Below are positions 39,362 through 44,716 of a DNA stretch of 44,716 bases, one piece after another. This DNA is from a virus. Location of the stretch: the IMG/VR virus record IMGVR_UViG_3300045534_000130, positions 1 through 44,716 of that record; one strand, given 5' to 3'. The translations under genes and the position numbers were made by a program. Numbering within the stretch: the stretch's first letter is position 1; every line of letters starts with the position of its first letter. The notes beneath the pieces were generated by a model. That model worked only from the letters and a program-made list of their open reading frames with translations. It was not told where the DNA came from and did no database searches.

Positions 39362-41536
39362 ATGCCACGGCGCGACACCCTGGCCGCGGCCTCAGGCCGT
39401 TGGCCGCAGATCCTGGCCGACCTTGGCGGGATCCGCCCCGAACAGCTCTGCCGCCGGGAGGGGCCCTGCCCGAACTGCGGGGGCTCGACCCGGTTCCGCT
39501 GGGATCAGGACGACGGCAACGGGGCCTGGCACTGCTCCCACTGCGGGGGGAAGGACGGCGCTGGCGGGGGAGGGACGGGAATCGATCTGCTGATGCGCGT
39601 CAGGGCGTGGACCTTCGCCGAAGCCTCTGCGCGGGTGGATCTGCACCTCTCGCGCGAGCGGCCGGCCGCAGGGCCCGCGCGGAAGCGCAGCCGGGGGGCC
39701 GCGTTCGTTCCACCTCCGAAGCGCCAGCCCCCACAAGCACCGTCCGAGCGCGTGGCGTTCCTCTGGTTGGAGGAGGCGGGCCAGGTGGCCGAGGGCGAGC
39801 ATTTCTCACCGCCCCATGCCCAGGGCCGGGCCTACACCAGCCGGTGGCTCAGGTGGTCGGGGGACAACATCGATCTCGCCGAGGCGATTGTCCTGGAGTT
39901 CGACACCACCGCCGGCCTGGATCGCCTCCCGCCAGATGAGCCGCCACCACCGGCCCCTGTCGAGCCTGTGGCCGCCATCCGGGCCTCCCTCGCTGCGGCG
40001 CTGCACCGGGGGGACACCCGAGCAGACCTGGAAGCCCTGATCGCTCGCCTCTCTGCGGAGCACGAGCAGTCAGCCGGCACCGTTCGGGCCATGCTCCGCG
40101 CGCTGGAGCAGGAGGAACGCTCTGCCCAGATGATCGCAACCGGTCGGCAGCGGCTGGAGATTGCAGCAGACCGGGCCGAGATCGGGGGGGAACTCATCAC
40201 CCTGGCGGGCCTGTTCCCCTCCTCCATTGCCGAGGCGATCCGCACTCGAATGCAGTTCCTGCCGGCGGATGACATCAGCTCAGCCCTGACGTTCCTGGCA
40301 GGCGCGGCCGGCGTCATGAAGTTGGGGTCGGAGGTCATCGCCAAGGCCAGCGCAGGCTTCAGGGTGCCACTGAATCTCTACGTGGCCCTGGTGGGCCGGT
40401 CCGGCGCGAAGAAGGGCCCCGGGACACGCCTCCTCCTCGACGAGCAGATTGATCCGATCGTGCGGGATCTCGCGCAACAGCACGCCAGGAACATGGCGTC
40501 ATGGAGGGAGGAGAACCACGGGCGCAAGGCCAGCGAGCGGTCTGAGCCTCCGCTGGAGCTCCGCATCAGGGCCTCGAAATGGACCGGCGAATCGTTGGAC
40601 GCGGCCTTGGCCAACCTGGAGACAGCCGGCCTGGGCCTGCTGATCTCTCGTGAGGAGCTGGCCGGCATGTTCGGGGGGCTCAACCAGTACCGGGGCGGCC
40701 GGGGCGATGATTCCGAGCAACTGTTGGAGGCCTACGACGGCCGGGGCGCCGTGGCCCTGAGGATCACAGCCGATGGGGGCGGGCGGTTCTACTCCCAGTG
40801 CCAGGTCACCATCTGCGGGGCCATCCAGCCGCTGGTCCTGAAACGCCTGGTGTCCGCGTCCGCCGGAGACGCCTCAGGCCTGTGGGCCCGGTTCGTGTTT
40901 GCGCCTTTGCCCGAGCGTGTGGTGGCGATCCCGCCAGAGGAGAGCCCTGAGCAGATCCAGGCGAGCGAAGCAGCGGCGGCCATGCTGGCGCACACCATCG
41001 GCCTTCTCTACCGCCTGCCCCGCCAGAGCCTGCACCTGTCCTACGAGGCTCGCAGGGACTTCCTGGCCTATGAGGCCCGGTGTCAGGGTGACGCCCTGCG
41101 CGCGGAGCTGCCCGCTCAGTCCGCCTGCTGGGGGAAGGCTGCAGGAAAGGCACTCAGGATCGCCGGCCTGCTCCACCTGCTCCACCGCGTCTGCCCCGAC
41201 GGTCGGCACTCCGAGGAAATCCAGCCCTGGGCGATTCGGGAGGCGTGCAACCTGACCGACCACCTGACGGGGTGGACCCTGGGGCTCCACGCTGCTGCCA
41301 GCGACGAGGAGGACCCGACTGAGTTGATGCGGACCCTGCACCGGGTGGCGGGGCTGGAGGGCTCCGTGGGCTGGCGGGAGCTGAGGGGCCGGCTGAGCAA
41401 GCGCCAGCGGGAAGCGATCGACAGCGGCGCAGCGCGGGCGGCGGCGGCGGCCCTGGCGGGCCTTGGCTACGGAGAGGTGCTGACAGGGGCTCGTGGGGGC
41501 TGGACCTACCGGGTGCTCAAGGACTTGCCGGGGTGA
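39362..41536 (+). CDS. Primase-helicase with DUF3987 core
   Basis: 724 residues. N-terminal zinc ribbon with Cys36/Cys39 (GPCPNCGG) and Cys58/Cys61 (WHCSHCGGKDG), like P4-type primases. A linker (100-270) follows, then the DUF3987 ATPase region: PLNLYVALVGRSGAKKGPG (P-loop-like 345-354), a LLISREELAGMFGGLNQYRG segment with the Walker-B/EE pair, and CQVTICGAIQPLVL. C-terminal helices follow (WGKAAGKALRIAGLLHLLHR). It likely primes and unwinds DNA at the repeat-rich region just downstream. It is the only recognisable replication initiator in the genome. Confidence 0.85.
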   Translation: MPRRDTLAAASGRWPQILADLGGIRPEQLCRREGPCPNCGGSTRFRWDQDDGNGAWHCSHCGGKDGAGGGGTGIDLLMRVRAWTFAEASARVDLHLSRERPAAGPARKRSRGAAFVPPPKRQPPQAPSERVAFLWLEEAGQVAEGEHFSPPHAQGRAYTSRWLRWSGDNIDLAEAIVLEFDTTAGLDRLPPDEPPPPAPVEPVAAIRASLAAALHRGDTRADLEALIARLSAEHEQSAGTVRAMLRALEQEERSAQMIATGRQRLEIAADRAEIGGELITLAGLFPSSIAEAIRTRMQFLPADDISSALTFLAGAAGVMKLGSEVIAKASAGFRVPLNLYVALVGRSGAKKGPGTRLLLDEQIDPIVRDLAQQHARNMASWREENHGRKASERSEPPLELRIRASKWTGESLDAALANLETAGLGLLISREELAGMFGGLNQYRGGRGDDSEQLLEAYDGRGAVALRITADGGGRFYSQCQVTICGAIQPLVLKRLVSASAGDASGLWARFVFAPLPERVVAIPPEESPEQIQASEAAAAMLAHTIGLLYRLPRQSLHLSYEARRDFLAYEARCQGDALRAELPAQSACWGKAAGKALRIAGLLHLLHRVCPDGRHSEEIQPWAIREACNLTDHLTGWTLGLHAAASDEEDPTELMRTLHRVAGLEGSVGWRELRGRLSKRQREAIDSGAARAAAAALAGLGYGEVLTGARGGWTYRVLKDLPG

Positions 41537-41558: not shown

Positions 41559-41583
41559 CCCCTGGGCAACCGGGGGCTTTTTT
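41559..41583 (+). terminator. Rho-independent terminator after primase-helicase
   Basis: Stem 41559-41565 / 41570-41576 (7 bp, one T-G wobble) with a GCAA tetraloop, followed by six T residues (41578-41583). It lies 22 bases after the stop codon of the primase-helicase gene. Confidence 0.85.
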
Positions 41584-41595
41584 GTATCCGCGTGA

Positions 41596-41893
41596 ACGTG
41601 GGTCAGTGTGGGTTGTGTGTGGGCTTTATGTGGGTTGAGTAAAATCCCTGAAAGCCCTTGGTATAACTACCTTTATGGCTATAGGGGGGTGTTATGTGGG
41701 TTATGTGGGTCGTTTTTTGACTTTCGTTTTTTCAAGGACTAAACTGTTCAGGTTGATACAGAAAAACGCATTTTTAGAGAGATAGGACCCACATAGCCCA
41801 CATAGCCCACACAAGCCGAAAACCTTTGCCACGACTGAAAATCGACGACCCACCTTCGACCCACCTTCGACCCACACAACAACCCCCCACACC
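41596..41893. repeat. Two opposed GTGGG iteron arrays around an AT-rich core (probable replication origin)
   Basis: On the plus strand GTGGG occurs six times between 41598 and 41709 (e.g. TATGTGGGTTATGTGGGTCG at 41692-41711); then an AT-rich core 41712-41785 with T and A runs; then the same word inverted as CCCAC seven times between 41788 and 41891 (GACCCACATAGCCCACATAG at 41786-41805, and an 11-base CGACCCACCTT tandem at 41847-41868). Thirteen short repeats in inverted arrays about an easily melted segment, next to the primase-helicase gene, resembles an iteron origin. There is no credible gene here. Confidence 0.7.
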
Positions 41894-42027
41894 CGTCAAG
41901 GATTCCTTGACAACTGCCCCCTGGTGGGTCGGTGCCTCCTGCAGGGATGGCGCTATGATTGGGGGGCTTTCTCCTCCGGAAGCGACTCCCAGTGAGTGTT
42001 GGACCTTGACCCGGTCTCTTTGCCCTT

Positions 42028-43448: not shown

Positions 43449-44132
43449 ATGCCCCAGCCCGACACGATGCTGGCTGATCAGTACCGGTTCGTCCCCATAT
43501 CGGAGCTGCCTCCATATCCGAAAAACGCCCAGATCCACACCAGGGGAGACGTTGAGGCGCAGGCGGAGGCAATCCAGGCCTTCGGCTGGACCGTTGCGGT
43601 GGTGGCCGATGGCCAGGGCATCATCGGCGGCCACAAGCGGGTCCGAGCCGCCGAGCTGATCTATTCCCGTGGAGGGGTCATCCGGCTCGCCTCCCAGATG
43701 CCTGACGGGGATCCGATCCCGGTGGGCACCGTTCCCGTGTTGTGGGCCGACCACTGGACCCCAGCCCAGCGCCGGGCCTACATCCTGGCGGAGAATGCCC
43801 ACGCCAAGCGTGCGGAGGTCGACTCGGGTCTCGTGGCCGAGGAGCTGGCGGCCCTGCAGCTGGAGGATTGGGACCTGGGGAACCTCGGATGGACCGAAAC
43901 CGAGCTGGATGAGTTCCTGACCGTGGATGGGGTGGACAGCGGGGGCGCCGAAGAGGAGGAGTCAGGGCTAGAAGAGGAGGAGCACGAGCGCGGCCAACCA
44001 CTGGCCATCGTGCTTCAGCCGGAGGAGCTGCGACGCTGGCGGATGGTGAAGGAGCGCCTCGGCCTCACCCTGGACCGCGCCGCGCTGCTGCGGCTCATTG
44101 ACCTGCAACTTGAGGACTCCTCTGATGGCTGA
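43449..44132 (+). CDS. ParB-domain (ParB/sulfiredoxin-like) protein
   Basis: 227 residues. N-terminal ParB domain: YRFVPISELPPYPKNAQIHT, a DGQGIIGGHKRVRAAELI catalytic/CTP-site-like motif (GHKR) and YILAENAHAKRAEVDSGL; phage members of this family often have nuclease or kinase-type activities. The middle is acidic (EEEESGLEEEEHERG), and the C-terminus is a helical LQPEELRRWRMVKERLGLTLDRAALLRLIDL that could dimerise. Stop overlaps the radical SAM start (TGATGGCTGA), so both are made together. It likely targets DNA. Confidence 0.8.
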   Translation: MPQPDTMLADQYRFVPISELPPYPKNAQIHTRGDVEAQAEAIQAFGWTVAVVADGQGIIGGHKRVRAAELIYSRGGVIRLASQMPDGDPIPVGTVPVLWADHWTPAQRRAYILAENAHAKRAEVDSGLVAEELAALQLEDWDLGNLGWTETELDEFLTVDGVDSGGAEEEESGLEEEEHERGQPLAIVLQPEELRRWRMVKERLGLTLDRAALLRLIDLQLEDSSDG

Positions 44133-44716
44133 TGGCATCCGCGCACTGAAAGGCGAGCTGCTCTGGGCGCCAGAGCCGCTGGAGCTTTCGATGAACTGGT
44201 GCGGCTTCGACTGCAGCTATTGCTACGCGAACGCACGCAAGCCGAACCGCACGGTTGACCTACCCCAGATCATGGGTCTCCTCGCAAACTTTCGAAACCG
44301 AGACACTAGAGAGGCCCGGCTCATGCAACTGGGCTACCCAGTCATCGCCAGCAACCACGTCGATGTGTTCGCTGGCACAAATGCCAGGCAGTTTGAGCCG
44401 ATCTGGGAGGTGTGCGTCAACCAAGAAGTGCCGATTGTGTGGCAGACCCGTGGGGCTCACAAGCCCCAGCGCCCGATCCTGGATCGGATTGTCCGGGAGA
44501 CACCCCGCTCAATCTGGTACGTCTCCGTACCTATGTGGGATGACGAGATCAGGAAGCGGATTGAACCCAAAGCGCCGCCCATCCCCTACCGACTGGAACT
44601 GATCCAGCAGCTCGTTGAAGCCGGCCACTCCGTCGTGGTGGGCATTAACCCGGTGTGCGTGGACTGGCTCCCCGACTACGAACCTCTCATCGACCGTGTC
44701 AAGAAACTGGGGGCCT
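44125..44716 (+). CDS. Radical SAM protein, SPL-like (N-terminal part; continues at base 1)
   Basis: Starts at ATG 44125, overlapping the ParB stop by 8 bases. The product begins MADGIRALKGELLWAPEPLE, followed by LSMNWCGFDCSYCYANARKP with the CxxxCxxC cluster (Cys26, Cys30, Cys33), then RSIWYVSVPMWDDEIRKRIEPKAPP. The last 127 bases here repeat the start of the window, so codons 156 onward are the ones at bases 1-789. Full product 417 residues. It binds a 4Fe-4S cluster and S-adenosylmethionine; substrate unknown, DNA is a reasonable candidate given the ParB partner. Confidence 0.8.
   Translation, partial: MADGIRALKGELLWAPEPLELSMNWCGFDCSYCYANARKPNRTVDLPQIMGLLANFRNRDTREARLMQLGYPVIASNHVDVFAGTNARQFEPIWEVCVNQEVPIVWQTRGAHKPQRPILDRIVRETPRSIWYVSVPMWDDEIRKRIEPKAPPIPYRLELIQQLVEAGHSVVVGINPVCVDWLPDYEPLIDRVKKLGA

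Follow-up and report, generated by a model that had tools for sequence, protein, structure and literature searches.

Introduction

The alpha protein of phage P4 (ori/crr) consists of a Zn-ribbon primase fused to a helicase and an origin-binding domain. In the SaPI/PICI origins, the iterons lie directly 3´ of rep and are bound by the C-terminal domain of Rep (PMC7581432), and two iteron sets that flank an AT-rich region are always present (PMC6092414). The SaPI origin model assigns the repeats of opposite orientation to two self-loading hexamers, and a head-to-head arrangement has been proposed for both SaPI and SV40 (PMC9894130). The SCCmec Cch2 origin carries AAGTG iterons downstream of the cch2 helicase gene, which are also bound by the C-terminal domain of the helicase (PMC7581432). 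DUF3987, a domain of 'unknown function', is a predicted helicase with unproven function, and it has been predicted to replace known helicases in primase fusions that bear a winged-helix C-terminus (PMC5862659).

Here we describe a viral DUF3987 gene that is directly followed by mirrored iterons, an arrangement that most likely marks a candidate origin of the SaPI/PICI-like kind beside the gene of a self-loading helicase. Like the SaPI/PICI origins, the array lies immediately 3´ of the putative initiator gene and has two iteron sets, here of 6 + 7 words, around an AT-rich core, here of 74 bp. In contrast to the SaPI Rep type, the initiator contains DUF3987, with no DUF927 or D5 (Primase_Cterm) match by Pfam, and the element is a complete tailed phage rather than a PICI, a satellite without a full set of virion genes. 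Since the window is neither a PICI nor, by Pfam, a carrier of a SaPI Rep homologue, we file the array as one that probably works like a SaPI/PICI origin. The Cch2 origin shares the position of the iterons, but only three direct iterons have been shown to matter there and it has no mirrored 6+6 array. The window protein is 48% identical to P4 alpha over the zinc ribbon, whereas the helicase family and the iteron word differ. Origins of the lambda O or plasmid Rep type, with direct repeats on one side and a separate helicase, differ from the present array, in which the sets are mirrored and the ATPase is part of the candidate initiator.

Results

Genome setting of the array

The window (the whole 44,716-nucleotide stretch that was analysed, an IMG/VR virus record) starts and ends with a perfect 127-bp direct terminal repeat (bases 1–127 and 44590–44716). 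As its first and last 127 bases are identical, the contig closes to a 44,589-bp circle, which means that either the genome is complete or the assembly is circularly permuted. The window encodes TerS, a GpA-like TerL, portal, head (capsid) protease, tape measure and tail proteins, together with an early block that contains an SSB-family protein, a recombinase/DNA-repair-like protein, HNH and other nucleases, an SF2 helicase and a dCTP-deaminase-like protein. The array starts ~60 bp 3´ of the stop codon of the DUF3987 gene, and a terminator-like hairpin sits between the two (Table 1). Both genes that flank the array are in one direction. Beyond the array, the circle continues with a minor-tail-like gene, a ParB-like gene (43449–44129, 1.6 kb downstream) and then TerS, ~3.7 kb on. 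The gene order of the window recurs in Pseudomonas phage ZRG1, which has its own CTAACG array ahead of the minor-tail gene. The CTAACG word is common to the arrays of ZRG1 (L290 20598–20959) and S-H1 (L268 17680–17937); both have zinc-ribbon primase genes, and the distances from array to primase gene differ.

Table 1. Coordinates of the putative initiator gene, the array and its parts in the window.
Feature	Position	Strand	Details
Putative initiator	39362..41536	+	Zn_Ribbon_Prim aa 32–66; DUF3987 ATPase/helicase aa 308–635; predicted C-terminal winged helix aa ~650–724
Intrinsic-terminator-like hairpin and T run	41559..41585	+	CCCCTGGGCAACCGGGGG CTTTTTT; pattern scan, consensus match only
Left outer iterons, 4 copies	41595..41637	+	GTGGG at 41598, 41608, 41619, 41630; 10–11 bp apart
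Left inner iterons, 2 copies	41693..41713	+	TATGTGGGT; GTGGG at 41696, 41705; 9 bp apart
AT-rich core, candidate unwinding region	41714..41787		74 bp, 32% GC; T-runs after left inner pair
Right inner iterons, 3 copies	41786..41813	-	CCCAC at 41788, 41797, 41806; 9 bp apart
Right outer iterons, 3 copies	41846..41878	-	CGACCCAC; inverted GTGGG at 41849, 41860, 41871; 11 bp apart
Seventh right copy, irregular	41884..41892	-	CCCACACCC; inverted GTGGG at 41886; 15 bp further out, outside regular spacing

Organization and statistics of the array

The array contains six GTGGG words on the + strand (spacing 10, 11, 11, 66 and 9 bp) and seven inverted words (spacing 9, 9, 43, 11, 11 and 15 bp), which exactly matches the positions given by an earlier reading of the sequence alone, as does the T/A-rich core of exactly 74 bases between them. 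The plan is thus four outer and two inner copies on the left and three inner and three outer copies on the right, with one irregular outermost copy. The outer spacing corresponds to about one helical turn. The two sub-families of repeats noted in that reading, TATGTGGG and CGACCCACCTT, are both present in the array; CGACCCACCTT occurs in two exact copies 11 bp apart, followed by CGACCCACACA. An extra + strand GTGGG at 41924 is not part of the pattern. The GC content of the core compares with 62% genome-wide, and 74-base windows as AT-rich as the core make up 0.4% of the genome.

Against a chance expectation of 1.0 for GTGGG, the array has 13 such words; for TGTGGG, 10 words fall within 0.3 kb and 0.18 are expected. 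The genome-wide number of TGTGGG is unremarkable (37 vs 33 expected; 10 of the 37 fall in the array), and it is the clustering and orientation of the word, rather than its genome-wide count, that matter. The chance of a perfect orientation split (6 then 7) is 1/1716. In an unbiased scan with all hexamers, in which the word was not preselected, the region has the best convergent-array score of the genome (20); the next best site scores 9, and 300 block-Markov simulated genomes reach a maximum of 13. The array occurs once in the circle, and Rfam gives no match. The mirrored array is therefore confirmed as real and far above chance. At 1–3 kb, both flanks of the array have a positive GC skew. The skew inversion that the sequence-only reading had proposed as a check is thus absent at this site and lends the origin reading no support.

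The putative initiator

The protein encoded ahead of the array has two Pfam matches, PF08273 for the primase zinc ribbon (E 6.7e-11) and PF13148 for DUF3987 (E 7.2e-34). It had been called a primase-helicase; what it retains of such a protein is a primase zinc ribbon and a DUF3987 ATPase only. The last 85 residues are predicted to form a winged helix. Their AF2 model has a pLDDT of 82.8 and the order helix-strand-helix-helix-helix-strand-strand, and the best PDB matches in Foldseek are mostly winged-helix domains with weak E-values (0.008–0.09), which include BlaI/MecI, FurB/Zur, CopR and kleisin domains. The predicted fold agrees with the published DUF3987 prediction (PMC5862659). The full-length AF2 model, built with three sequences, has a pLDDT of 40.9, which is too poor for use. 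A PDB sequence search with DUF3987 profiles matched just the S-2L PrimPol AEP domain, by way of the N-terminus of the relative L284, and retrieved no solved structure of DUF3987 itself.

DUF3987 relatives in viruses, plasmids and bacterial genomes

A search for related loci with the window helicase as sole query found none. Two viral DUF3987 relatives have an array directly 3´ of the gene in a window-like layout: L284 (45–52% identical), with the word TGTTGG, and L045 (54% identical over the C-terminus), with TGTGGG. The window, L045 and L284 all have a T-run behind the left inner pair. Although the helicases of L284 (3835–6510) and the window are related, their primase modules differ: that of L284 is an AEP/PrimPol like that of cyanophage S-2L (PDB 6zp9, E 4e-27), and that of the window is a DnaG-type zinc ribbon. 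The primase module has thus been swapped, and the helicase, the C-terminus and the origin plan have been retained. By this sequence comparison, it is the helicase and C-terminal part, rather than the primase module, that stays with this kind of origin.

Arrays with scores of 14–27 are present in all five cyanobacterial plasmids that were taken for their DUF3987 protein (L272, L273, L274, L275 and L276; e.g. L276 4510–4836). Plasmids such as pOSC7112.05 and pCRI9333.07 resemble the window in having a DUF3987 initiator (~25% identity) and a mirrored array with an iteron spacing of 9–12 bp, and differ from it in that the primase module, where recognisable, is of the Prim-Pol/AEP type and that the array falls within the coding sequence at its 3´ end. 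In all five plasmids, the iterons encode the repetitive tail of the DUF3987 protein, so that the origin would code for part of its own putative initiator. In pOSC7112.05 (7.6 kb), DUF3987 is the only recognisable replication gene.

In a sample of cyanobacterial and pseudomonadotal genomes, a phased convergent array is found at the stop codon of 25 of the 49 bacterial DUF3987 loci (22 of 44 distinct genes), compared with one of 141 control windows, and these arrays often have a compact 3+3 form. In the pseudomonadotal loci L422–L430, chromosomal DUF3987 genes end in compact 3+3 mirrored arrays with 8–9 bp spacing across the stop codon. The scanner detects exact hexamers only; with it, no convincing array was found in about half of the bacterial DUF3987 loci or at the gene 3´ end of the DUF3987 phage AAS23, and cyanophage S-2L gave no clear array.

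Mirrored arrays sampled by word and by protein

A word search for two facing TGTGGG pairs, each with 9-bp spacing and with 75–105 bp between the pairs, retrieved 26 viral loci, whereas ~0.01 are expected for random bases by a rough estimate. Most of the 26 share the plan with outer 11/12-bp and inner 9-bp spacing around the core. The genes that adjoin them include some for AAA+/SF3-like replication proteins of several families (DUF5906, VapE-like, D5_N and DUF927); in one group, the TGTGGG/TerL group, the array adjoins the terminase gene (TerS), 2–6 kb from the helicase. Many plain matches to three TGTGGG words looked like in-frame repeats without a mirrored partner and were removed by the mirrored pattern. 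Pattern matches in genome contigs were mostly low-complexity hairpin repeats of Nostoc/Oscillatoria and REP-like repeats of Pseudomonas, and were judged unrelated. Nostocales genomes (L147–L226, mostly Nostoc) hold very many TGTGGG/CCCACA low-complexity hairpin repeats, for which no tie to a helicase was seen.

To sample by protein only, we searched with an alignment of three DUF5906 primase-helicases (from L002, phage S1 and L140). It yielded 80 loci, 78 of which had enough downstream sequence for the array scan. The best mirrored array lies at the 3´ end of the DUF5906 gene in all 78 viral loci; many of these come from near-identical phages, and they represent fewer than 78 independent lineages. 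The 3´-end arrays have a median score of 22.5, and 76 of the 78 score at least 13, whereas elsewhere in the same loci the median is 9 and the maximum 12. The finding that helicase relatives chosen by protein carry mirrored arrays at the gene 3´ end supports the earlier proposal of a candidate origin by the primase-helicase gene. The geometry is near-constant: on the left, the words start at 0, 9, 21 and 33 and then at 65 and 74 or at 74 and 83; on the right, three words 9 bp apart are followed by a gap of ~42 and three more. In contrast, the iteron word takes at least 15 different forms (GTGCGG, TGTGGG, TGCAGG, GTTGCG, TGTCGA, GGGACA, ACTACG, AACCAC, GTCAAC, CCACGG and others). Conservation in relatives, which the sequence-only reading had named as a check, thus holds for the architecture and not for the repeat word itself. 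An AT-rich core is not general in the DUF5906 family.

Stenotrophomonas phage S1 (gp1; NC_011589) illustrates the likeness. Directly after its DNA primase gene lies a mirrored 6+6 array with 9/12-bp outer and 9-bp inner spacing; it differs from the window in its DUF5906 helicase and its iteron word (GTGCGG), and the record carries no origin annotation. With the exact-hexamer scanner, no convincing array was found at the gene 3´ end in MZH0603, 1.185.O, phiM5 and ep3, which have DUF5906/PrimPol-type genes. Thiohalocapsa phage MD04 (L287) has a GGTTGT mirrored array (6+4, score 18) at 4–236, at the genome start and far from the primase gene. Two TGTGGGAAG mirrored arrays are present in one 57.6-kb phage contig (L125 206–335 and L146 1671–1805); their inner flanks form a long inverted repeat, and they are possibly two origins or another element.

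In the DUF5906 family, the iteron word changes with the helicase C-terminus

In the DUF5906 family, the pairwise distance between iterons was compared with the distances between parts of the helicase. The correlation is strongest for the C-terminal 12% (rho 0.80), and it is weaker for the N-terminus (0.67) and the helicase domain (0.58). The partial correlation for the C-terminus given the helicase domain is 0.68, whereas that for the helicase domain given the C-terminus is 0.03; these figures are a contrast without a p-value, since the DUF5906 pairs are not independent. The comparison indicates that in this family the iteron word co-diverges with the C-terminus of the helicase and not with the ATPase domain. 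The co-divergence and the winged-helix model agree with the binding of SaPI Rep and Cch2 to their own iterons through the C-terminal domain (PMC7581432).

Discussion

We consider it highly probable (roughly nine chances in ten) that DNA replication of this phage starts at 41595–41892 and that the upstream protein is the initiator, which would seat two facing hexamers on the iterons. The 4+2 | 3+3(+1) plan of the array suggests two such hexamers. Every helicase subunit would bind a single iteron through its C-terminal winged helix. The left set, with 4 outer and 2 inner copies, would then hold one hexamer, and the mirrored right set, with 3 inner and 3 outer copies, the other. The two hexamers would face each other across the AT-rich core and melt it, and would then move apart as two fork helicases while the primase module does the priming. 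The analysis itself establishes the array and its departure from chance, its conserved position and geometry beside this type of helicase, the co-divergence in the DUF5906 family and the predicted fold of the C-terminus; that DUF3987 binds DNA, that hexamers occupy the iterons, that the core is unwound and that the site acts as an origin are inferences. That a loader or helicase would be aimed at the core from both sides, as the initial reading proposed, matches the published model of the SaPI origin (PMC9894130).

The repeats might instead be bound by the terminase small subunit as a packaging initiation site (pac/cos). A terminase match lies in the flank of 70 of the 80 DUF5906 loci, the arrays of one TGTGGG group stand beside TerS, and TerS also follows the window array on the closed circle. 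Such a site would be tied to a terminase and confined to packaged genomes, which is not what the arrays show: they also occur in plasmids with a DUF3987 gene, whose stretches that were read carry no annotated terminase, and at DUF3987 genes of bacterial genomes. In loci of the L294/L298/S-H1/Mcat1/Turba type, the terminase is 1.3–2.5 kb off and the stop codon of the helicase gene is within 300 bp, and the iteron words track the helicase C-terminus. We therefore regard a packaging site as highly improbable.

Short repeats at 9–11 bp spacing can also be operators, and a promoter-like match lies within the core (41717–41745), so the array could be read as the operator of a transcriptional regulator for the flanking genes. 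However, both of these genes point the same way, the terminator-like hairpin precedes the array, a mirrored 6+6 geometry persists, with varying words, beside one gene type across phages and plasmids, and the array lies inside coding sequence in the cyanobacterial plasmids. An operator as the primary function seems slightly less probable still than a packaging site, and the array may have a second role of this type in autoregulation. A centromere-like parS site for the nearby ParB-like protein is the least probable reading, since array-bearing relatives such as phage S1 have no annotated ParB there, the arrays are associated with the helicase gene, and, judging by database matches, ParB-like proteins from phages are in many cases nucleases or methyltransferase fusions.

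Returning to the origin reading, its extension beyond this phage is evenly balanced in our judgement. Mirrored-iteron origins of tailed phages, cyanobacterial plasmids and integrated elements could form one general class, used by self-loading helicase initiators of several ATPase families (DUF3987, DUF5906/D5, VapE and DUF927). In this class, a near-fixed 4+2 | 3+3 geometry would place one iteron per subunit of two facing hexamers, and the iteron word would drift with the C-terminal winged helix. In the openly searchable literature, we found no account of this plan for tailed phages or for DUF3987; an earlier description, for example of individual phage origins, is possible.

The SaPI/PICI origin plan, which was called exclusive to those satellites in 2018, would also be present in ordinary phages and plasmids, and DUF3987 gains a concrete candidate role as an origin-binding initiator. 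As the iteron word and the C-terminal domain appear to co-diverge, the natural variants would offer a ready-made set for learning how the helicase recognises its origin, and a simple scan may locate the origins of unannotated phages. If the general class is true, it would be the bacterial counterpart of the SV40-type double-hexamer origin, and phage origins would become predictable from sequence.
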